Shown piece by piece: positions 1-8,702 of a stretch of 8,702 nt of DNA; within the stretch, counting starts at the first letter, position 1; each line of letters opens with the position of its first letter. The notes under the pieces are model-generated. The model was not told where the DNA came from. It did not search any database and saw only the letters and a program-made list of their open reading frames with translations. Origin of the DNA: Acidobacteriota bacterium (GTDB lineage Bacteria; Acidobacteriota; Terriglobia; Terriglobales; Acidobacteriaceae). The translations under genes and the position numbers were made by a program. The stretch lies in assembly GCA_021810735.1 (NCBI GenBank), contig JAJZIF010000135.1, positions 1-8,702 of the forward strand. The letters are read 5' to 3'.

Positions 1-790
1 TCGGGTGACAGAGGCCATCCGGCACGATCTTAAAGAACGTGGCGAGCTTGCAACAGGAGCAATGATGGAACGCCATGTGCCTCTGCAATGGACGGAGGCA
101 CAGAAGCGCGATCCTGCGAATTATCACGAAGGGCAGATATTGCATTTCTATCGTGCGACGCATGGCGTCGATCGACATGACTCACTGGAAGTCCGTCGCG
201 TGGATGGCGATACCCTGGCTGCTCGCAACGAACGTGGCCAGGATGTCTCGCTGACAACGAAGCAGGCATGGGCCTACTCTGTCCACGAACGCCAGCCGAT
301 GGAAGTTGCTGCGGGCGACCGGCTTCTCCTGACGGGCAATCGCCGTAGTCCAGAGTTTCAGGCCACGAATGGCGAATTGGTCATCGTGCGCAAAGTTGAA
401 GGCAAGAGCATTCATCTGGAAGATGGCAGGACCATTCCAGATAACTATCGTGAGTTTACGCATGGCTATGCCGTCACCGCACATCGCTGTCAGGGGAAGA
501 CGGTGGATAGGGTCATCGTTTCCGCCGACGCGATGAAACAGGAGCTCTTCTACGTGGCCGCATCGCGCGGACGGGAGGAGATTGCCATTGTCACCAGCGA
601 CCGGGAACAGTTGCGAGAATCCCTCGGCATCTCGACCGCGCGTCCGTCAGCCACGGAGCTGGCCAGAGAATTGAAACATGAACCTGCTTCGCACGAGCAT
701 GGCCTGGAGAAAATGCCAGTGCAAAGGGTGCAGCAGCCGGAACCAAGGAATGAAATCAGTTACGGCTATGACTTCGGGCCGAGTCTGTAA
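1..790 (+). CDS. MobF/TrwC-type conjugative relaxase-helicase, C-terminal part (5' end outside window)
   Basis: This is the C-terminal part of a conjugative relaxase of the MobF (TrwC/TraA-like) family, which nicks oriT and unwinds plasmid DNA in the cytoplasm before transfer. The frame is open to the window edge, so the GTG at 5 is almost certainly internal. Numbering from that GTG, residues 154-168 (GYAVTAHRCQGKTVD) form the helicase motif V region and residues 183-191 (YVAASRGRE) match motif VI of the SF1 RecD-like helicase half. Both are typical of the second helicase domain in these proteins. The N-terminal relaxase domain with its catalytic tyrosine is not visible. The tail after residue 215 is charged and ends naturally at TAA 788-790. 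The gene converges on the copper operon and marks the locus as part of a transferable element. A RecD-like exonuclease or standalone helicase is possible but less likely, given the QWTEAQKRDP-type segment. Confidence 0.85.
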   Translation, partial: RVTEAIRHDLKERGELATGAMMERHVPLQWTEAQKRDPANYHEGQILHFYRATHGVDRHDSLEVRRVDGDTLAARNERGQDVSLTTKQAWAYSVHERQPMEVAAGDRLLLTGNRRSPEFQATNGELVIVRKVEGKSIHLEDGRTIPDNYREFTHGYAVTAHRCQGKTVDRVIVSADAMKQELFYVAASRGREEIAIVTSDREQLRESLGISTARPSATELARELKHEPASHEHGLEKMPVQRVQQPEPRNEISYGYDFGPSL

Positions 791-816
791 ATTGTGATGA
801 GAATTCGCATTGCAAT
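791..816 (+). repeat. Inverted repeat/hairpin directly after the relaxase stop codon
   Basis: ATTGTGATG (791-799) pairs with CATTGCAAT (808-816) around an 8-nt loop. In RNA this gives a 9-bp stem that includes two G-U wobbles. It starts at the base after the relaxase TAA, where a transcript-end hairpin would be expected. No T-run follows, so it is not a canonical intrinsic terminator. It may stabilise the 3' end or serve as a DNA dyad. Confidence 0.4.
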
Positions 817-834
817 CTATACCCATGGGCATAG
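817..834. promoter_or_regulatory. 18-bp near-palindrome resembling the copZ-side operator
   Basis: CTATACCCATGGGCATAG is palindromic at 8 of 9 base pairs, with an A/C mismatch at 821 and 830. Its pattern TANNCCCATGGGNAT is shared with the candidate CsoR operator at 8378-8392, where 12 of 15 positions are identical. It could be a second binding site for the same regulator, or a remnant of a copper promoter. No clear promoter or gene next to it explains it. Confidence 0.35.
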
Positions 835-982
835 TGAAAGGTGGACACTGGTGGATGATTTGCGGAGTCCGCGTCTCGGAAGAGTCTGCAAACGCTGAAT
901 AGTATCTTGATTAAGCTGTTTCACTCCGACGCAATTCTTGAGCTATATTTCAATCCATTCCCGCTCTTCGCCAGAGTGCGCC

Positions 983-1006
983 TTCTCGGAACAATTGTTG
1001 CGAGAA
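983..1006. repeat. 24-bp near-perfect palindrome downstream of the operon
   Basis: Outer arms TTCTCG (983-988) and CGAGAA (1001-1006) flank a perfect 10-bp inner palindrome, AACAATTGTT (990-999). The only mismatch is the G/G pair at 989 and 1000. It lies 42 nt past the last stop codon of the operon. There is no T-run on either side, so a canonical terminator is unlikely. Its symmetry suits a dimeric DNA-binding protein or a recombination site, but nothing nearby identifies a partner. Confidence 0.5.
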
Positions 1007-1048
1007 CGGCTATTTGACGGATTGCGAACCTAATCGGTAAAAACGCAA

Positions 1049-1555
1049 TCACTGACTGCCTCTCAAGGGCAATGGATAAGTCGGCCATGTTTCAACCAGG
1101 CTACTGAGGAGCGTGGCAGAGCCTGCTGCAATGACAGTGAAAGGAAGAACGACCGTCAGCGGAAACCAATGGCCCGGATGAAGTAGCAAGGGATACATCG
1201 CCAGCGCCACGCCGGGCGGATGGTATGCGTGGATCAGGTTGACGATGCCGAAGGCCACGATGGCGGCGACAATTGCCATGACGGCTCCGTGCGAAAACAG
1301 GCTGAGCAACGTTCCCACGGAGGCTCCAACAACGGAACCAACTACCAGGGCATAGGGTTGTGCCACTGCCGCCTCAGAAAGATCGAGAAGAATAGTAAGC
1401 GTAGCGCCAAAGGGGGGAATCAGGTACAGCCCGATGCGATTATCCTCCAGAATCGCCAGAATGCCGAACATGGAGAGGAACCACAGATACTCCGTGCTGT
1501 TCAGTCGGGATTTGGTTCCCCAGCAGCGAACCATGCGGGAGCAAACATTGCGCAT
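1049..1555 (-). CDS. HPP family integral membrane protein (single unit)
   Basis: This small inner-membrane protein of the HPP family (168 aa) keeps the family signature HPPG at residues 112-115. Family function is poorly defined; some plant and cyanobacterial members have been linked to nitrite transport. Hydrophobic segments lie near residues 23-36, 43-57, 67-87, 91-108 and 132-152. IPPFGA at 46-51 is a second conserved-looking loop, and HPPGVALAMYPLL continues into a helix. The ATG at 1555 is chosen because GAGG precedes it by 5 nt and it lies 28 nt after the CopB stop; a longer frame to 1669 would overlap copB by 86 bp. It is the last gene of the operon. Its position suggests a role in copper stress, but its substrate is unknown. 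Confidence in the family is high and in any function low. Confidence 0.85.
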   Translation of the reverse strand: MRNVCSRMVRCWGTKSRLNSTEYLWFLSMFGILAILEDNRIGLYLIPPFGATLTILLDLSEAAVAQPYALVVGSVVGASVGTLLSLFSHGAVMAIVAAIVAFGIVNLIHAYHPPGVALAMYPLLLHPGHWFPLTVVLPFTVIAAGSATLLSSLVETWPTYPLPLRGSQ

Positions 1556-1583
1556 ACGTGCCTCGATTCGTGTAGACGCGATC

Positions 1584-2393
1584 TCAATACCAGAGACGGA
1601 GTCCGAAGACGAAACTGGAGTTACTGGTTGCTTCTCCGGACAGGCGCGTATAGCGAGCTGAGCCGCCATAGTTGCCGTTGTAGGCCCACCCTATATAAGG
1701 ATTTAATTTACGGTTAACTTCGTAGCGCAGACGAACTCCGGTATCGATGTCTGAGAAGCCAGAACCGATTTTGCGTGCGGGGTCGTCCTTACTATAGAAA
1801 TTCAGCTCCGCCTGCGGTTGCACGACCCATCGCTGCATGAGGAAGAGATCCCACGAGCCCTCGATGCGCCCGGCCATGTGTCCGCCATCGCGGATATAGA
1901 ACGTTGGCTCAAAGTCAAAAAAGTACGGCGCGAGACCCTCGATGCCTGCGGCGGCCCAGACACGAGTCGGGTTGGAATCGATGTCGGCGCGCACTCCTGC
2001 CTGGGCGTCGAAATAGCGCATGCGCGGAATCGGCCGGTCATAAAGAGCCTCATGGTCCCCGTCGCTGACCGCGCCGTTGCCGGCGAAGCCTTCCGATTTG
2101 ATCCAGAGTCGGTTCATGTCGGTGCCGATCCAGCCTTCGCCGTCCCACCGGAACGCATCATTCGATCCATTGGTCCGCCCCTCGAACTGATTAAGAAGCA
2201 CATGCGCGTTTACCGTATTGTCCCGGACAGCGGATGGCCATCCCGGCACTTTCGCCGGAACTGGTTCCGGTGCAGCGGGAACCGATGTCTGCGCACCCGC
2301 CAGCCGCGCCGCAACCAGGCCGAAGACGCATATCAGAATTGGAATCGCGTGGGCAGACTGCATTCGGCGAACGATCTTCCCGGCGGCGCTCAT
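1584..2393 (-). CDS. copB: Copper resistance protein B (CopB/PcoB), outer membrane
   Basis: This protein (269 aa) matches the CopB/PcoB family of outer-membrane copper-resistance proteins, which work with the periplasmic PcoA-type oxidase. Residues 12-34 form a signal peptide with a likely cut after AGA (32-34). Family-like segments are WDGEGWIGTDMNRLWIKSEG (83-102), ALYDRPIPRMRYFDAQAGVR (116-135) and NPYIGWAYNGNYGG (231-244). Alternating hydrophobic residues and an aromatic final residue (LRLWY) fit a beta-barrel. The ATG overlaps the oxidase stop (ATGA, 2390-2393), which implies translational coupling; Met-11 is the alternative start. Unlike many homologues, the mature N-terminus has no Met/His-rich stretch, only a Pro/Ala-rich linker at about 36-55. 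The metal-binding task may be carried by the Met-rich segment of the adjacent oxidase. Confidence 0.9.
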   Translation of the reverse strand: MSAAGKIVRRMQSAHAIPILICVFGLVAARLAGAQTSVPAAPEPVPAKVPGWPSAVRDNTVNAHVLLNQFEGRTNGSNDAFRWDGEGWIGTDMNRLWIKSEGFAGNGAVSDGDHEALYDRPIPRMRYFDAQAGVRADIDSNPTRVWAAAGIEGLAPYFFDFEPTFYIRDGGHMAGRIEGSWDLFLMQRWVVQPQAELNFYSKDDPARKIGSGFSDIDTGVRLRYEVNRKLNPYIGWAYNGNYGGSARYTRLSGEATSNSSFVFGLRLWY

Positions 2394-4288
2394 GAGACCA
2401 CCACCGTACGGAACATGCCGGCACGCATGTGGTAGAGCAGGTGGCAGTGGTAGGCCCAGCGGCCCGGCGTATCCGCGCTGACGAGATAACTCACCCTTTC
2501 GGCGGGCTTGACGGTGATGGTGTGCTTATAAGGATTGAACGCGCCGTGTCCGTTTTCCAGTTCGCTCCATAAGCCGTGCAGGTGAATCGGGTGCTCCATC
2601 ATGGTGTCATTGACAAGCACGATACGGAGTCGCTCTCCGAGCTTCAGTTGAATCGGTTCTGCGCTGGAGAACTTCTGCCCATTGAATCCCCAGATGAAGC
2701 GCTCCATATTGCCGGTGAGGTGGAGTTCGATTTCGCGCGTCGGGGTTCTGCCGTCCACTCCTCGGTAGCGGGCGCGCAGATCGGCGTAGGTGAGCACCCG
2801 GCGTCCATTGTGCTCGAGCCCGTCGCCGGGATCGTTCAATCGGCCGCTGACGCTCATGGGCATCGCAGCCACCTGCGGACCGATATGTATTTTGGCAGGG
2901 TTGGATGCCTGCAATTTCACTTCCTCGCCGGTCGTTCCCCCGATCCGCGCCGTATGCGGGCCGGGCTGCGGAAACGGCGTCGTCCCCGTCCCGCGGTTGC
3001 TCTGCATTGCCAGCATGGATTCGTGCGTACTACCCATGGCAGGCGAGGTTGCATGCCTGCCCTGCATGCCCGAAGCCCCCATCTGCATTCCACTCATGCC
3101 CTGCTTGCCGCTCATCTTCATGCCAGCCATGCTGCCCATGCCCATGTCCATCATGGTGCGCGTGGGGCGCGGATCCATCGGTGGGACCGCCGCAGTCAAC
3201 CCCAGTGTTGGCGTGAGCGTGCCGCGTGCAAACCCGGTACGATCTTCCGCCTGGGCAAAGATGGTGTACGCGGTGCTGGCGGCCGACTGAACGACTACAT
3301 CGTAGGTTTCCGCAACGCCCATGCGGAACTCATCTACTTCCACCGGTTCCACATCGTTGCCATCGGCTTGCACCACCGTCATGGGAAGGCCGGGGATGCG
3401 AACGTCAAAAAATGTCATCGAGGAGCCATTGATGAAGCGCAGACGAACGCGCTCGCCCGGCCGGAAGAGGCCGGTCCAGTTTGCCCTGGGAGGATTGCCG
3501 TTGAGCAGATAGGTGTAGGCGGCTCCTGATACATCGGCGATATCGTTGGGACTCATATTCATCCGCCCCCACGGCAGACGCTTGCGGATCGTAGCTGCAG
3601 CGCCCTGTTCCTTCGCATCCGCGACGAAGTTCGCCAGAGTGAAACGATGGTAGTTGTAGTAGTCGCTCTCCTGCTTCAGATTGCTGAAGATCGTTTCCGG
3701 ATTGGCGTCGGTCCAGTCGGAAAGCAGCACGACATATTCGCGGTCGAACTCAATGGGGTCGTGGTCGCGGTCGCGGGGTTCGATCACAAGGGCGCCGAGC
3801 AAACCCGTCTGCTCCTGGAACTGCGCGTGGCTGTGATACCAATAGGTTCCGTTCTGGCGCACAGGGAAGCGGTAGATGAATGTTTCACCGGGAGCGATGC
3901 CGCGATAGCTGAGTCCGGAAACGCCATCCATTCCTGCAGGTATCCGCATGCCATGCCAGTGAATGGAGCTGGTCACATTGAGCCGGTTGGTGACGGCAAC
4001 GGTGACAGTATCACCCTCACGCCAGCGGAGGGTGGGTCCCGGTGAGGAGCCGTTCACTCCGGTAGCCATCCGCGGACGGCCCGTGAAGTTGACCGGTAGT
4101 GTGTCGATTACGAGATCAAAATGCGTGCCGGAGAGCACGGGCGACGTTTGCGAATCGGAGTCGGCAAAAGCTGCGATGCCCGCGCCGCCCAGTGCAGCCA
4201 ACGCGCCAGCGGAGGCGATGCCCTGTACGAAGCGGCGGCGGCTGATGGGAGTGTTGAGTCTGTCAAAGTTGGAAACGTAGCTGTTCAT
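2390..4288 (-). CDS. pcoA: Periplasmic multicopper oxidase, PcoA/CopA copper-resistance family, Tat-exported
   Basis: This is a multicopper oxidase (632 aa) that probably oxidises Cu(I) to the less toxic Cu(II) in the periplasm. A Tat signal is visible: SRRRF at 16-20, then a hydrophobic stretch at 24-42. All four copper-ligand motifs are present: HWHG (110-113), WYHSH (150-154), HPIHLHG (566-572) and HCHLLYHMRAGM (614-625). Cys615, His620 and Met625 have type-1 copper spacing, and His614 and His616 serve the trinuclear cluster. Cupredoxin-like domains cover about 54-170, 185-350 and 460-632. A segment at 379-429 holds 14 Met, as in copper-resistance oxidases rather than laccases. The ATG overlaps the upstream stop (ATGA, 4285-4288) and follows GAGGA by a short spacer. 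The CopB neighbour supports the PcoA assignment. All catalytic ligands are intact, so it should be active. Confidence 0.95.
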   Translation of the reverse strand: MNSYVSNFDRLNTPISRRRFVQGIASAGALAALGGAGIAAFADSDSQTSPVLSGTHFDLVIDTLPVNFTGRPRMATGVNGSSPGPTLRWREGDTVTVAVTNRLNVTSSIHWHGMRIPAGMDGVSGLSYRGIAPGETFIYRFPVRQNGTYWYHSHAQFQEQTGLLGALVIEPRDRDHDPIEFDREYVVLLSDWTDANPETIFSNLKQESDYYNYHRFTLANFVADAKEQGAAATIRKRLPWGRMNMSPNDIADVSGAAYTYLLNGNPPRANWTGLFRPGERVRLRFINGSSMTFFDVRIPGLPMTVVQADGNDVEPVEVDEFRMGVAETYDVVVQSAASTAYTIFAQAEDRTGFARGTLTPTLGLTAAVPPMDPRPTRTMMDMGMGSMAGMKMSGKQGMSGMQMGASGMQGRHATSPAMGSTHESMLAMQSNRGTGTTPFPQPGPHTARIGGTTGEEVKLQASNPAKIHIGPQVAAMPMSVSGRLNDPGDGLEHNGRRVLTYADLRARYRGVDGRTPTREIELHLTGNMERFIWGFNGQKFSSAEPIQLKLGERLRIVLVNDTMMEHPIHLHGLWSELENGHGAFNPYKHTITVKPAERVSYLVSADTPGRWAYHCHLLYHMRAGMFRTVVVS

Positions 4289-5271
4289 ATATTCCTCGCA
4301 TCCGGGTTATGGTTTGTGTTGATCGCGGATCTCCGAAGATAACCGCGCGCCAGGAACCAGAAGGTTAGTGTGGTGGTGCCGATCGCGACCGATATGGGAT
4401 ACCAGGCATCGGGAGCGGTCATCACGAACGGGAGCACGCCGATCGCCAGGGCCGGAGGCATGTGCATTCGGAAGCAGCGCAGCAGCAGGATTGAGATTGC
4501 GACGGTCAGGACAACCCCGGCGGGTCTGCCGTGGAAGCTGCGGCACGCGACCAGCCCCACGAACGCGGTGAGGAACGACACCAGAGGAAAGAGCGCGGGC
4601 CGCTCGATCCAGCCCGGCAGTTCCGGGTGGCCTAGGATTTCGTAAGCCATGACAATCAGCGGTGGAAAGAGCATGAAGCGCAAGCCTGTGAGCTGACTGG
4701 CGACCGCCACGACCAACACGAAGGTCAGTAGAGTGATCGGCCAGAAACGCTCGGCGGGAATGGTTTCGAGCTCGTCGTCGATCGTTTCGAGTATAGAGGC
4801 TAGCGGCTGGGCTTCCATCGAAGAGACACATCTTTGCCAGACCCACATCAGCAACGCGAGGCCAATCAATCCCGCGCAGATGACAAGCGGATATATCCAG
4901 CGCCGCTCGTCGAGGACTATGGGCAATACGCCTGCAGAGATGGCGGGCGCAATGGACGAGCGGAGTAACCGGATGATGAAAAGACTGGCAATCACAATCA
5001 CGAGCAGCACGATTGCGTTGTAGTGCGTGTGTCGCGTGATGAAAGATCCTGCGACGGCTGCCAGCGTGGGTGTCAGAATCAACCTGAACGGCTGACTGGC
5101 CCACTTTCCGTGGGGCCGGGTGAGGACGTCGTGCGACAGTGCGGCCAATTCAGGGAACAGCAGCAGATTGACTCCGGTACGATGTGCAGCCGTCGCGACA
5201 GCGCCCATGAAAGCTACAGCCAGCAGTTCAGCAAACAGAATGGTTCGCTGATGTTGTATTGATACCGGCAA
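4285..5271 (-). CDS. Tandemly duplicated HPP-like membrane protein
   Basis: This polytopic membrane protein (328 aa from the TTG at 5271) contains two homologous halves. Residues 32-77 resemble 195-241: both run TG-x3-LFP, then a loop, then a helix. Residues 107-128 (APAISAGVLPIVL...WIYPL) resemble 272-293 (PPALAIGVLPFVM...WYPI). These correspond to the HPP-signature helix of HPP family proteins, but the motif is degenerate: IAP in the first half and MPP in the second. About ten hydrophobic segments and a charged linker (148-177) are visible. The TTG at 5271 is preferred because AAGGAG lies 6 nt before it. A longer frame starts at a TTG at 5340 with a weaker, closer GAGG and adds 23 polar residues. 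It sits between csoR and the oxidase, with an ATGA overlap into the latter. A transporter role is inferred; the substrate is unknown. Confidence 0.75.
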   Translation of the reverse strand: MPVSIQHQRTILFAELLAVAFMGAVATAAHRTGVNLLLFPELAALSHDVLTRPHGKWASQPFRLILTPTLAAVAGSFITRHTHYNAIVLLVIVIASLFIIRLLRSSIAPAISAGVLPIVLDERRWIYPLVICAGLIGLALLMWVWQRCVSSMEAQPLASILETIDDELETIPAERFWPITLLTFVLVVAVASQLTGLRFMLFPPLIVMAYEILGHPELPGWIERPALFPLVSFLTAFVGLVACRSFHGRPAGVVLTVAISILLLRCFRMHMPPALAIGVLPFVMTAPDAWYPISVAIGTTTLTFWFLARGYLRRSAINTNHNPDARNI

Positions 5272-5277
5272 GACAGG

Positions 5278-5283
5278 CTCCTT
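5278..5283 (-). promoter_or_regulatory. Shine-Dalgarno AAGGAG deciding the start of the HPP-like gene
   Basis: On the minus strand AAGGAG is followed by a 6-nt spacer and TTG at 5271-5269. This is the best ribosome binding site in the region. The frame has no ATG until well inside the first membrane helix. Confidence 0.55.
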
Positions 5284-5354
5284 TGGCGGGCAATAGGTCT
5301 CCTGAGGCAGCCTGAACGGCTTCCTGGGAGAGCGATGCAAATGGCCTCGAATTT

Positions 5355-5438
5355 CTAGCGAGCGTTCTTGTAGATCACGTCCAGCAGCTCGTCCTATATA
5401 GCTTGTTTCTCATCATCCGATCCGGTCCTGATCGCATG
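5355..5438 (-). pseudogene. Out-of-frame C-terminal helix of csoR (1-nt deletion plus in-frame stop)
   Basis: Shifting frame at 5438 restores a CsoR-like tail: HAIRTGSDDEKQAI, then a TAG stop (5394-5396), then DELLDVIYKNAR and the final TAG (5355-5357). Adding back one base gives an intact protein of 118 codons, the normal size for the family. The internal TAG sits where a Tyr codon would be expected (I-Y-D-E-L-L). Two separate lesions argue for real decay of the C-terminal helix rather than one sequencing error. Confidence 0.7.
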
Positions 5439-5710
5439 GCTGCGCAGTGCGCCAGGTGATTGCGCCTCAGAGATCGGGCGACCGCGAGGTGCGCCTCCTG
5501 AGCCGAAGAGACCGGCATCAAAATGTCTGCGCAATAGCGGTCCTCCTCCACCATGCGCTGAATTCCGCGCATTTGACCCTCGATGCGGCTGAGCCGTCGC
5601 AGACTCGATGTTTTGATCACCGGATGGACGCCCACCGCTTTGCGCCCGGCAGCCGAAACCGCGCATCCAGGGAATCCTGCGGACGATTGTGTGGTCTTTT
5701 TCGTTGCCAT
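5375..5710 (-). CDS. csoR: CsoR-family copper-sensing repressor with frameshifted C-terminus
   Basis: This is a CsoR/RcnR-family regulator (DUF156 fold), normally a helical tetramer that leaves its operator on binding Cu(I). Residues 37-90 match the family: LRRLSRIEGQMRGIQRMVEE, then Cys60, and His85 and Cys89 in NHLAHC. The Cys-x24-His-x3-Cys spacing equals that of the characterised Cu(I) site (Cys36, His61, Cys65 in M. tuberculosis CsoR). From residue 92 the frame is wrong, and it ends in 20 unrelated residues (stop at 5375-5377). The expected third helix continues one frame over, to 5355. The ATG at 5710 follows AGGGAG, 8 nt after the copA stop. The truncated protein may still bind copper, but tetramer assembly or allostery is doubtful. 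The extended N-terminus (1-36) has no recognisable motif. Confidence 0.8.
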   Translation of the reverse strand: MATKKTTQSSAGFPGCAVSAAGRKAVGVHPVIKTSSLRRLSRIEGQMRGIQRMVEEDRYCADILMPVSSAQEAHLAVARSLRRNHLAHCAAMRSGPDRMMRNKLYRTSCWT

Positions 5711-5718
5711 AGTTCTCC

Positions 5719-8118
5719 CTATCCCAGCTTCAGCCGGCTGAGGCGCAGACTGTTGGTAACAACGCTGAACGAGCTGAAGGCCATCGCGGCGCTGGCCAGC
5801 ACCGGACTGAGGAGCAAGCCGCAGAAGGGGTAAAGAGCTCCGGCTGCGAGCGGAATGCCGACCACGTTATAGGCAAAAGCCCAAAACAGATTCTGACGCA
5901 TGACACGCATTGTGCCGCGAGAGAGTGCGATGGCTGCTGCGACTCCGGTGAGATCACTGCGCATGAGCGTAACGTCACCGGCTTCCATGGCCACGTCGGA
6001 GCCGCTCGCCATTGTGATGCCGACCTCCGCTTGCGCCAGCGCGGGGGCATCGTTCACGCCATCACCGACCATGGCCACCACGCGGTGTTTGGCCTGTAAA
6101 CGGCGAATCGCATCGACTTTGCCCTGCGGCAGCAAGCCCGCAATCACGTCGTCCACGCCCACCTCGCGCGCAATCGCATGGGCAGTCCGTTCATTGTCCC
6201 CGGTAAGCATCACTACATGCAGCCCCTCGCGATGCAGTTGCCGAATCGCTGCGATGGAGGTCGGCTTGATGGTGTCGGCCACCACTATCACACCAGCCAG
6301 ATCTCCATCGATGGCAACCCACAGGGGAGTCCGGCCCTTTGCAGCCGCCTGCTCCGCAACCCCGGTGAGCGGTGCAATGGAGATGCCGTCATTCTTGAGG
6401 AGCAGCGGATTGCCGATCAAAATGGCATGGCCTTCGGCGATTCCTGACACGCCGTGCCCGGTTATCGATTGGAAGTCTTCCGCTAGCGGAACAGAAGAGC
6501 CGCGATAATTGGCATGGCGAACGACAGCTTCACCCAGCGGGTGCTCGCTGGCGCGTTCGAGTGCAGCCGCCAGGCGAACCACCTCGTCGCGGGAAACGCT
6601 GCTGCCAGGATGGAGCAATACATCCGTGACCTCCGGTCGGCCCGCTGTGATGGTGCCTGTCTTGTCCAGCACCACCGTATCGATCTTCTCCAAACGCTGG
6701 AGCGCCTCACCGCCCTTAATCAGTAGTCCAAACTCCGCGCCCCGTCCTGTCGCCACCATCACTGCTGTGGGGACCGCCAGCCCCATCGCACACGGACAGG
6801 CGATAACCAGCACCGCTACAGCAGCGGCGAAAGCCTGCATCATGCCAACGCTGTGCGCAAACAACTCCCACGCTCCGAATGTGAGGAGGGCGAGACCAAG
6901 CACGGTGGGCACAAAGATGGCGCTGATGCGATCGGCAAGATGCTGAATCGGTGCGCGGGATCCCTGCGCATCGCGCAGCAGGCGCACGATCTGCGTCAGA
7001 ATGCTTTCTGCTCCGAGCATCGTCGCACGATACTGCAGCGAGCCACGCTGGTTGAGGGTTCCGCCGATGACTCGATCCTGCGCGACCTTTTCGACGGGCA
7101 GCGATTCGCCGGTCAGCATCGACTCGTCCACGCTGCTCCTTCCGGAGATGACTTCGCCATCCGTGGGAATTCGCTCCCCGGGACGAACCAGGATGAGGTC
7201 GCTGTGCTGAATCGCTTCTAGGGGCACATCGACTTCCGCGCCCTCCCGCAATACACGCGCCGTCTTAGGCTGCAGTTGCACCAGTTTGCGCAAAGCAACG
7301 GCGGTTTGACCTTTGGCACGGATCTCCAGCGTGTTCCCGATCAGGACCAGTCCGATGATCAGAATGACGGCTTCGTAATAGACATCGGGCGCGACACCGT
7401 GGGCTATAAAGAAGCCCGGCGCAATGGTACTGGCTGCGGAATACAGAAATGCGGCTCCAGTCCCGAGCGCCACAAGCGTGTTCATGTCCGCAGTCTTGTG
7501 CAGCAGCGCCGACCATGCCTTCACGTAGAAGTGGCGTCCTGCCCAGCCGACGATGAGCGTGGCCAGCCAAAAGAGCGACCATCGTAGGGTATTGTCGCTG
7601 ATCGAATACAGCCATGGAGTCATCCCGCGCAATGCCGGATCAAGGACCCGCATCGACCAATTCATGAATGGGTCTTTCATACGCTCGAGGCCGCCTGCGC
7701 TGTTCATGCTCATCAGCGGCATGGAGACGATCATGGCAACGACGCCGGCCAGGAAGCTGACCCCGGCCTTCAGGCGCAGTTGTCGATATTCCCGCAGCTG
7801 ATCTTCGTCATTTTTCTCCTGCGCTTCGAGGACGGATGCATGTGCAACCGGCATCTCCGCGCCGTAACCGGTGCGGCGGATCTTCTCCACAAGGGCCGTC
7901 GGCAAGACAACCCGCGGATCGAAGCTGACGGTCGCATTGTGCAACATGAGATTGACAGTCGCATCCTGGACCCCTGCCTCTCCCGCGAGCGTGCGCTGAA
8001 TGAAAGACTGGCATGCCGCGCAGGTCATGCCGGTCACCGGAATACTTATGCGTTCCAGGGCGGCGACAGAGGCTCTGTCTCTGTCGTCCACCGCTTCGGC
8101 GGTAACCGTGTTCGACAT
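5719..8118 (-). CDS. copA: Cu+-exporting P1B-1-type ATPase
   Basis: This copper-translocating P-type ATPase (799 aa) pumps cytoplasmic Cu(I) across the inner membrane. One N-terminal HMA domain carries MTCAAC (31-36). Further motifs in order are: TGES (336-339, actuator dephosphorylation), CPC (441-443, membrane copper site), DKTGT with phosphorylated Asp485 (485-489), HP (526-527, nucleotide domain), TGDN (639-642) and GDGVNDAP (685-692). YN (750-751) and M779-x2-SS (782-783) in the last two helices mark the Cu+ (P1B-1) subclass rather than Zn/Cd or Ag-only relatives. All key residues are intact and the length is normal. The ATG at 8118 follows AGGGAG by 7 nt, and this site lies within the last codons of copZ (3-nt gap between genes). 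csoR begins 8 nt downstream. Confidence 0.97.
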
Positions 8119-8121
8119 TTT

Positions 8122-8343
8122 CTAACTCCCTGAATTAGCGTGAATGTGGGCCTGGAAGCCGATGCGTTCGACCGCCGCTTTGATCTGCTCAGGCACAATA
8201 GCAGCAGGATCAAAGTTGACATTCGCTGATCCGACTTCGACAGAATCGACGCAAACCCCTGCTACTCCGGTGAGCGCATTTGTCACCCTGCGAATACAGG
8301 CCGCGCAATGCATTCCTTCGATTTCAATCCTGACGTTTTCCAT
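8122..8343 (-). CDS. copZ: Small HMA-domain copper chaperone (CopZ-like)
   Basis: This 73-aa protein is a single heavy-metal-associated (HMA) domain that binds cytoplasmic Cu(I) and presumably delivers it to the adjacent ATPase. The metal loop GMHCAAC spans residues 10-16, with Cys13 and Cys16 as ligands. The rest shows the ferredoxin-like beta-alpha-beta pattern (SVEVGSANVNFDP, then the IVPEQIKAAVERIGF helix). The ATG at 8343 is preferred: AAAGGAG lies about 10 nt upstream, and residue 1 begins the first beta-strand. A GTG at 8376 would add 11 basic residues and abut the operator, so it is unlikely. His in place of Thr in the MxCxxC loop is a common variant. It is the first gene of the operon, with only 3 nt to copA. 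Confidence 0.92.
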   Translation of the reverse strand: MENVRIEIEGMHCAACIRRVTNALTGVAGVCVDSVEVGSANVNFDPAAIVPEQIKAAVERIGFQAHIHANSGS

Positions 8344-8366
8344 GCTCCGAAATCTCCTTTCTCGTT

Positions 8367-8398
8367 TTAAAAGCACTTACCCCCATGGGTATTCACAA
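8367..8398 (-). promoter_or_regulatory. Tentative operon promoter with a long spacer
   Basis: On the minus strand TTGTGA (8393-8398) and TTTTAA (8367-8372) could be -35 and -10 boxes. The 20-bp spacer is unusually long, and the inverted repeat lies wholly within it. Both hexamers are imperfect. The placement upstream of copZ is right, but the assignment is weak. Confidence 0.3.
8378..8391. promoter_or_regulatory. Candidate CsoR operator
   Basis: TACCCCCATGGGTA contains the inverted repeat TACCC-N4-GGGTA with a G/C tract, the kind of site bound by CsoR/RcnR-family repressors. It ends 34 nt before the copZ ATG, ideally placed to block the operon promoter. The operon encodes its own CsoR, so autoregulation is expected. 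Confidence 0.6.
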
Positions 8399-8585
8399 AA
8401 CTTCTACGAACAGCTACCTGCACAACATAGGACTTTGGTTTGCTGTTCTCTTTCGTTGCCGTCCGAAGGCCGATAGTGTACGGGCGCAGTTGGCCGCCAA
8501 AAAACTACAGCAAGAAAAAGCCAAGTGCAGCAAGATTCACCAAGTAGATGGACAGCAGACCCGCTATTACTTGAGGAAGGAGTAG
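8385..8585 (+). other. Doubtful 66-codon ORF or 3' remnant upstream of the right-end gene
   Basis: The frame opens at an ATG inside the operator core, with no ribosome binding site, so this start is unlikely to be real. The last ~35 residues are Lys/Gln-rich (QLAAKKLQQEKAKCSKIH, then QVDGQQTRYYLRKE) and look more protein-like than the first half. It ends at TAG 8583-8585, 5 nt before the next ATG, and AAGGAG for that gene overlaps its last codons, as in an operon. It may be the 3' end of a gene cut when the copper cluster arrived, or chance. I do not recognise the sequence. Confidence 0.25.
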
Positions 8586-8590
8586 CCAAC

Positions 8591-8702
8591 ATGGGAATCT
8601 TACAAGTCATAGTCGATAGTTTCATCGTGGCAATGGGCATCACTCCACCGAAACCTAAAATGAGGCGAACAGCGACGATCTTCATTGCGACTGGCCTGCT
8701 TG
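8591..8702 (+). CDS. Unidentified membrane protein, N-terminal fragment (runs off window)
   Basis: An ATG at 8591 follows AAGGAG by 8 nt and opens a frame of 37 codons to the window edge. It begins MGILQVIVDSFIVAMGITPP, then a basic stretch KPKMRR and a hydrophobic run TATIFIATGLL, which looks like the start of a transmembrane helix after a short amphipathic segment. It is transcribed away from the copper operon and probably belongs to the neighbouring element rather than to copper resistance. The family cannot be told from this fragment. Confidence 0.55.
   Translation, partial: MGILQVIVDSFIVAMGITPPKPKMRRTATIFIATGLL

Follow-up and report, generated by a model that had tools for sequence, protein, structure and literature searches.

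A probable recent csoR pseudogene beside a conserved copper pump in an acidobacterial copper-resistance cluster

The locus raises the question of whether a copper-efflux operon still has a working switch when its own sensor gene, csoR, keeps all the copper ligands of its family and ends in the wrong reading frame. The window, i.e. the whole stretch of 8,702 nt analysed here (contig JAJZIF010000135.1, positions 1 to 8,702, assembly GCA_021810735.1), carries on its minus strand copZ, copA, csoR, a putative membrane protein, a multicopper oxidase, copB and a TM_HPP protein. Our analysis indicates that csoR is very probably a recent pseudogene beside a conserved pump, and that copper efflux would be constitutive or only loosely controlled. 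It looks like ordinary gene decay, not a new kind of sensor.

The csoR gene and its copper cluster

The features on which the argument rests are as follows.

8378-8391, minus strand: CsoR-type operator TAC-CCATGGGG-GTA, 5' of copZ, spacer of 8 bp and not 9 (from the sequence and the relatives' sites)
8122-8343, minus strand: copZ, copper chaperone with a heavy-metal-associated domain; putative start at 8343, the mechanical open reading frame reaching 8376
5719-8118, minus strand: copA, copper-translocating P-type ATPase of 799 aa, intact (domain match and conservation)
5375-5710, minus strand: csoR reading frame, 111 codons plus TGA (open reading frame, translation, Pfam)
5513-5515, minus strand: csoR codon 66, which encodes Pro in the window; all 119 other listed homologues have Gln, and S. 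lividans CsoR has Gln81 at the equivalent position (alignment)
5435-5443, minus strand: frame-change site, codons 90-92, just past the last copper ligand Cys89 (translation)
5394-5396, minus strand: TAG in the displaced tail, where relatives have a conserved Tyr (AMYDELL) (translation, relatives' tails)
5355-5438, minus strand: what is left of the csoR tail (helix alpha-3 region), out of frame with the body and closed by the TAG at 5355-5357 (translation, relatives' tails)
4285-5340, minus strand: putative membrane protein, HPP-like by eye only, without a Pfam match at 1e-3
2390-4288, minus strand: copper resistance multicopper oxidase (TIGR01480) of 632 aa, intact (domain match)
1584-2393, minus strand: copB copper resistance protein, domain intact (domain match)
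2-790, plus strand: partial TraI/TraA-type relaxase/helicase, match below curated cut-offs

The csoR frame runs from the ATG at 5710 to the TGA at 5375-5377 and encodes 111 aa with the C-terminal end ...RRNHLAHCAAMRSGPDRMMRNKLYRTSCWT. Codons 1-89 are open and family-like, and the Pfam domain Trns_repr_metal (PF02583) was matched by residues 34-92 with 70.1 bits against a family cut-off of 22.8, covering positions 3-61 of the 78 profile positions only. The Cu(I) ligands Cys60, His85 and Cys89 are present at the family spacing C-x24-H-x3-C, as the sequence-only reading had claimed, and the RLXR motif of helix alpha-1 is present as R39 L40 S41 R42. The displaced tail can be read in a different frame of the same strand as HAIRTGSDDEKQAI, a stop, DELLDVIYKNAR and a second stop, the two TAGs lying at 5394-5396 and 5355-5357; the first of them is the interruption of the shifted family tail that the same reading had described. 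Its further claim, a deletion of 1 nt after residue 91, holds for the frame change itself and not for the precise site, which can be narrowed to codons 90-92 without placing the exact base. There is no homopolymer at the frame change, the longest run being 2 over 5430 to 5450. Through the frame change and the nonsense codon, helix alpha-3 and the family C-terminus are absent from the window CsoR. The large frames neighbouring csoR have full domain matches. The picture of a lost third-helix region in an otherwise intact operon was confirmed.

The alignment with homologues proposed earlier gave the same result. Among the 120 homologues listed of the 692 found, the window entry (P0001) included, 116 keep the usual end of the ...IYKNAR type and are mostly 114 or 118 aa long, in agreement with the expected length of 118 codons; the usual tail is missing from the window, P0002, P0019 and P0105. 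As for genomes, 75 of the 397 drawn from the order matched P0006 at 1e-15, with one match each, a cut that may overlook badly broken csoR copies; in all 75 the csoR has no internal stop and the alignment reaches at least residue 115 of 118. One database protein is identical to the window CsoR over all 111 residues, its longest contig measuring 1476 bases, so that the csoR sequence may have been assembled a second time, though possibly from the same sample.

The order copZ-copA-csoR is common to the window and the acidobacterial loci. The nearest CopAs among the fetched loci, those of L129 and L130, are 82% identical to the window CopA, and a relative of the membrane protein at 4285-5340 is found at the corresponding position of L133 (56% identity). 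The relaxase/helicase piece suggests a conjugative element as a possible carrier of the copper cluster. When plasmids were searched with the operon as query, none of the 855 matching records covered 80% of it, and viral contigs searched with CopA yielded four distant loci only (41-44%). The Rfam scan of the window gave no match at gathering scores and no tandem repeats were found in the window. A divergent plus-strand frame (8591-8702) starts after the ribosome-binding-like GGAAGGAG and runs off the window end; the copZ operator is about 200 bases away. At 818-834, directly after the relaxase/helicase frame, TATACCCATGGGCATAG looks like a short palindrome of the CsoR type; no target gene is evident.

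Decay of the csoR body, the copZ operator and possible control in trans

The csoR lesions are not confined to the tail. Within the core, i.e. CsoR residues 22-89, 44 columns show conservation of 97% or higher across the other 119 sequences listed, and the window CsoR departs at six of them (D29H, N36S, Q66P, L74H, R75L and M82R). At the same columns, 98 of the 120 listed sequences show no departure, 18 show one and three show two; the window alone shows six. Its leave-one-out core score (-64.8) was the lowest, followed by that of P0112 (-37.2), with a median of -13.1, and its terminal branch in the core tree was the longest of 120, narrowly (0.224, the next being 0.209). With 6 of the 44 conserved sites altered, the chance that all three ligands survive is about 0.64, so their retention says little in favour of function. 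Both this decay of the body and the change in the operator were overlooked in the first reading.

One of the six departures is at codon 66. Window residue 66 aligns with Gln81 of S. lividans CsoR ahead of any gap, and the same alignment offset of 15 also pairs Arg54 and Arg57 of the S. lividans protein with Arg39 and Arg42 of the window. Gln81 was described as completely conserved across known CsoRs, and the S. lividans Q81A protein was folded and tetrameric, with DNA binding absent by calorimetry, band shift and gel filtration (PMC3902906). This invariant Gln of helix alpha-2, required for DNA binding in the S. lividans protein, is absent from the window CsoR, which has Pro66. In S. lividans CsoR, individual mutations in alpha-3 lowered the affinity by only about 2- and 4-fold (PMC3902906), so that a missing alpha-3 would not by itself prove lost repression; it is the combination that argues for it. 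Judged by its sequence, the window CsoR probably cannot repress.

The operator points in the same direction. A TAC-X9-G(T/C)A site was found upstream of copZ in 13 of the 21 scanned relatives, with a spacer of 9 in all 13, and eight scanned loci were without a site under the filter (L008, L015, L019, L020, L022, L030, L033 and L132). PMC3902906 gives TACX9GTA for a number of known CsoR operators, that of M. tuberculosis being different. In the window the linkage to copZ-copA is present and the operator is recognisable, with X8 instead of X9; the number of such sites expected by chance was 0, for a pattern picked after the site had been seen. The single missing spacer base may affect CsoR binding. 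The course of events that we propose is that csoR, at the end of the copZ-copA-csoR unit and within the larger copper-resistance cluster, died recently, that no working repressor would now be produced, and that repressor and operator would have been released from selection together. The efflux operon would then be constitutive, or loosely controlled if another CsoR of the host tolerates the shortened site.

Such control in trans is the alternative that has to be weighed most seriously: an intact CsoR elsewhere in the host could still regulate the operon in response to copper and make the local csoR redundant, for example when the cluster has been acquired by a host that already carries a csoR. 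It overlaps with the pseudogene reading, csoR being dead in both. The relaxase/helicase piece at 2-790 suggests a conjugative setting for such a move, the operator is still recognisable, and there is a precedent in S. aureus, where a mobile copB-mco operon is reported to be under chromosomal CsoR control (PMC6191537). Seven related genomes contain 18 matches to PF02583, of which eight are CsoRs with the C-H-C ligands (two in G007 and one in each of the six others); of the remaining ten, six are readable and without C-H-C, and four were missed by the motif used. The two C-H-C CsoRs of G007 make trans control possible in some hosts, and each of them adjoins a copA of its own. On the other hand, only 75 of the 397 genomes of the order had a match at 1e-15, one each, and the operator spacer is shorter by one base, which speaks against tight control in trans. 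We regard regulation by a second CsoR as rather unlikely. With regard to the three outcomes named in the sequence-only reading, the evidence fits constitutive expression best, leaves room for control in trans, and makes a truncated sensor with altered behaviour unlikely in view of the body, the Gln and the operator.

CopA as an internal control

A second alternative is that csoR is intact and that its lesions are errors of sequencing or assembly. Both lesions are small changes, as such errors would be, and the neighbouring CopA was used as an internal control. The comparison comprised 33 taxa (L001-L005, L009, L010 and L110-L135 without L119, plus the window), selected for a CsoR above 150 bits, more than 440 aligned CopA residues and readability of both genes; L006-L008 and L011-L098 were excluded, as were L099-L109 and L119, which duplicate loci already included. 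At sites identical in all other taxa, the window shows 6 departures among 35 in CsoR and 0 among 127 in CopA (residues 360-780). The 32 other taxa pooled gave 6 CsoR departures in 934 (highest 2 of 31) and 45 CopA departures in 4109 (highest 6 of 133), counts that are not independent because some retained pairs (L121/L122 and L123/L124) look nearly alike. The conservation of CopA in the window is not unique among the 33 taxa. Fisher tests gave 7e-5 for 6/35 against 0/127 and 1e-6 for 6/35 against 6/934, values that serve as a guide only, given how few the sites are and that the taxa are related. The counts indicate a loss of purifying selection in csoR relative to its neighbour CopA, as is expected of a pseudogene.

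Errors would not prefer the invariant sites of csoR over those of CopA, the neighbouring large frames have full domain matches, and the frame change lies outside any homopolymer. The identical protein of 111 residues on the 1476-base contig also stands against an error, though it is possibly from the same sample. Since the decay is specific to csoR, sequencing error was rejected, and we consider an intact gene behind these lesions very unlikely.

The ratio of csoR dN to copA dN was 0.58-0.88 in the four window pairs and 0.10-0.44 in the six pairs among L129, L130, L001 and L002, with synonymous sites near or at saturation. The csoR dN itself was 0.08-0.10, far below dS, which suggests that most of the history of csoR passed under selection and that the loss, if real, would be recent. 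In three bins of CopA identity the median CsoR-core identity was 0.778, 0.721 and 0.824 for window pairs and 0.836, 0.853 and 0.890 for other pairs, with overlapping ranges; against L131 the window has a higher identity in the CsoR core (0.838) than in CopA (0.761). Taken at the level of sequence, the kept ligands and RLXR motif, the open codons 1-89 and a dN far below dS count against the pseudogene reading, and any decay would be at most recent.

Short CsoR forms and related loci

A CsoR without helix alpha-3 might still work as a sensor with altered behaviour. The retained ligands and RLXR motif are consistent with this, as are the mild effects of the S. lividans alpha-3 mutants (about 2- and 4-fold; PMC3902906) and a similar end at 111 aa in P0002 and P0019, apparently from another lineage. 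Q66P and the five further departures at near-invariant sites argue against it, survival of the three ligands has a chance probability of about 0.64, and P0019 has lost His85; we find a working truncated sensor highly doubtful.

P0002 and P0019 are metagenomic CsoRs of 111 aa whose tail resembles a shifted reading right after Cys89 (HCRATQSGAGRRKRRKRCMTSFWK in P0002); in P0019, His85 is replaced by Arg. Both were placed near P0006 in the core tree, and a region search with the P0002 tail gave five matches, with the tail common to P0002 and P0019 only. No relative was found in viral contigs searched with P0002, and 385 of 387 records from the plasmid search with P0002 were below 60% identity. 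Inheritance of the short form in common with these two proteins was rejected, as the unrooted core tree separates the window from them, the window's own placement being without support. A more far-reaching proposal is that short forms of CsoR have arisen repeatedly in acidobacteria, keeping the ligands, dropping helix alpha-3 at the same codon and acting as DNA-blind copper binders or buffers produced along with a constitutive pump, not as repressors. The window on the one side and P0002 and P0019 on the other would be separate instances; the missing His85 of P0019 argues against it, and the proposal seems to us extremely improbable. Restoration of the csoR tail by ribosomal frameshifting deserves almost no credence and was rejected: the tail is readable in the other frame, but the TAG before its end means that a frameshift alone cannot yield a full tail, and the csoR body has decayed too.

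Other irregular genes were seen among the relatives. The metagenomic P0105 is a CsoR of 144 aa with Cys89 replaced by Arg and a C-terminal end that is not family-like. In the Acidobacteriaceae locus L043 (1501-2150), csoR has a frame change near the domain start and has lost an internal segment including the His85 region, which indicates that such loss occurs elsewhere in the group. The multicopper oxidase gene beside csoR in L129 (6750-7835) was matched in three abutting pieces ending at residue 364, and the one in L133 (2-405), at a contig end, was matched only over residues 15-85 and 534-608; to judge from these matches, this gene looks to be decaying in L129 and L133, whereas it is intact in the window. 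A literature search covering titles and the beginnings of abstracts turned up nothing that we recognised as a broken csoR in Acidobacteria.

As compared to known systems, the window is closest to the copZ-copA-csoR loci of Acidobacteriaceae and relatives (L001, L002, L129, L130 and L133), which share its gene order, have CopAs 76-82% identical to that of the window and carry a TAC-GTA site ahead of copZ; L133 also has an HPP-like protein and multicopper oxidase pieces after csoR. In these loci csoR reaches the family C-terminus and the operator spacer is 9, and in the window neither is the case. L043, from an Acidobacteriaceae MAG, resembles the window in that a frame change has disrupted its csoR and a multicopper oxidase lies on the same contig, but its lesions are different, including the internal loss, and a CopA match is absent from its 4.7-kb contig. 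S. lividans CsoR (4adz) belongs to the same family by sequence and its ligand and RLXR positions align with those of the window, which differs by Pro at the Gln81 position and by the absent alpha-3 region. The mobile S. aureus copB-mco operon likewise combines copper genes, a multicopper oxidase and CsoR control; chromosomal control is what PMC6191537 reports there, while the window has a broken csoR inside the cluster and its control in trans is hypothetical.

If csoR is the recent pseudogene that we take it to be, the window offers a clear example from nature of repressor loss in a metal-efflux operon, with a changed operator and a retained pump that is probably without a local on/off switch. 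With the neighbouring CopA as internal control, gene decay could be told apart from sequencing error. The case is otherwise ordinary pseudogenisation, and it means that the retention of all metal ligands does not imply a working sensor.
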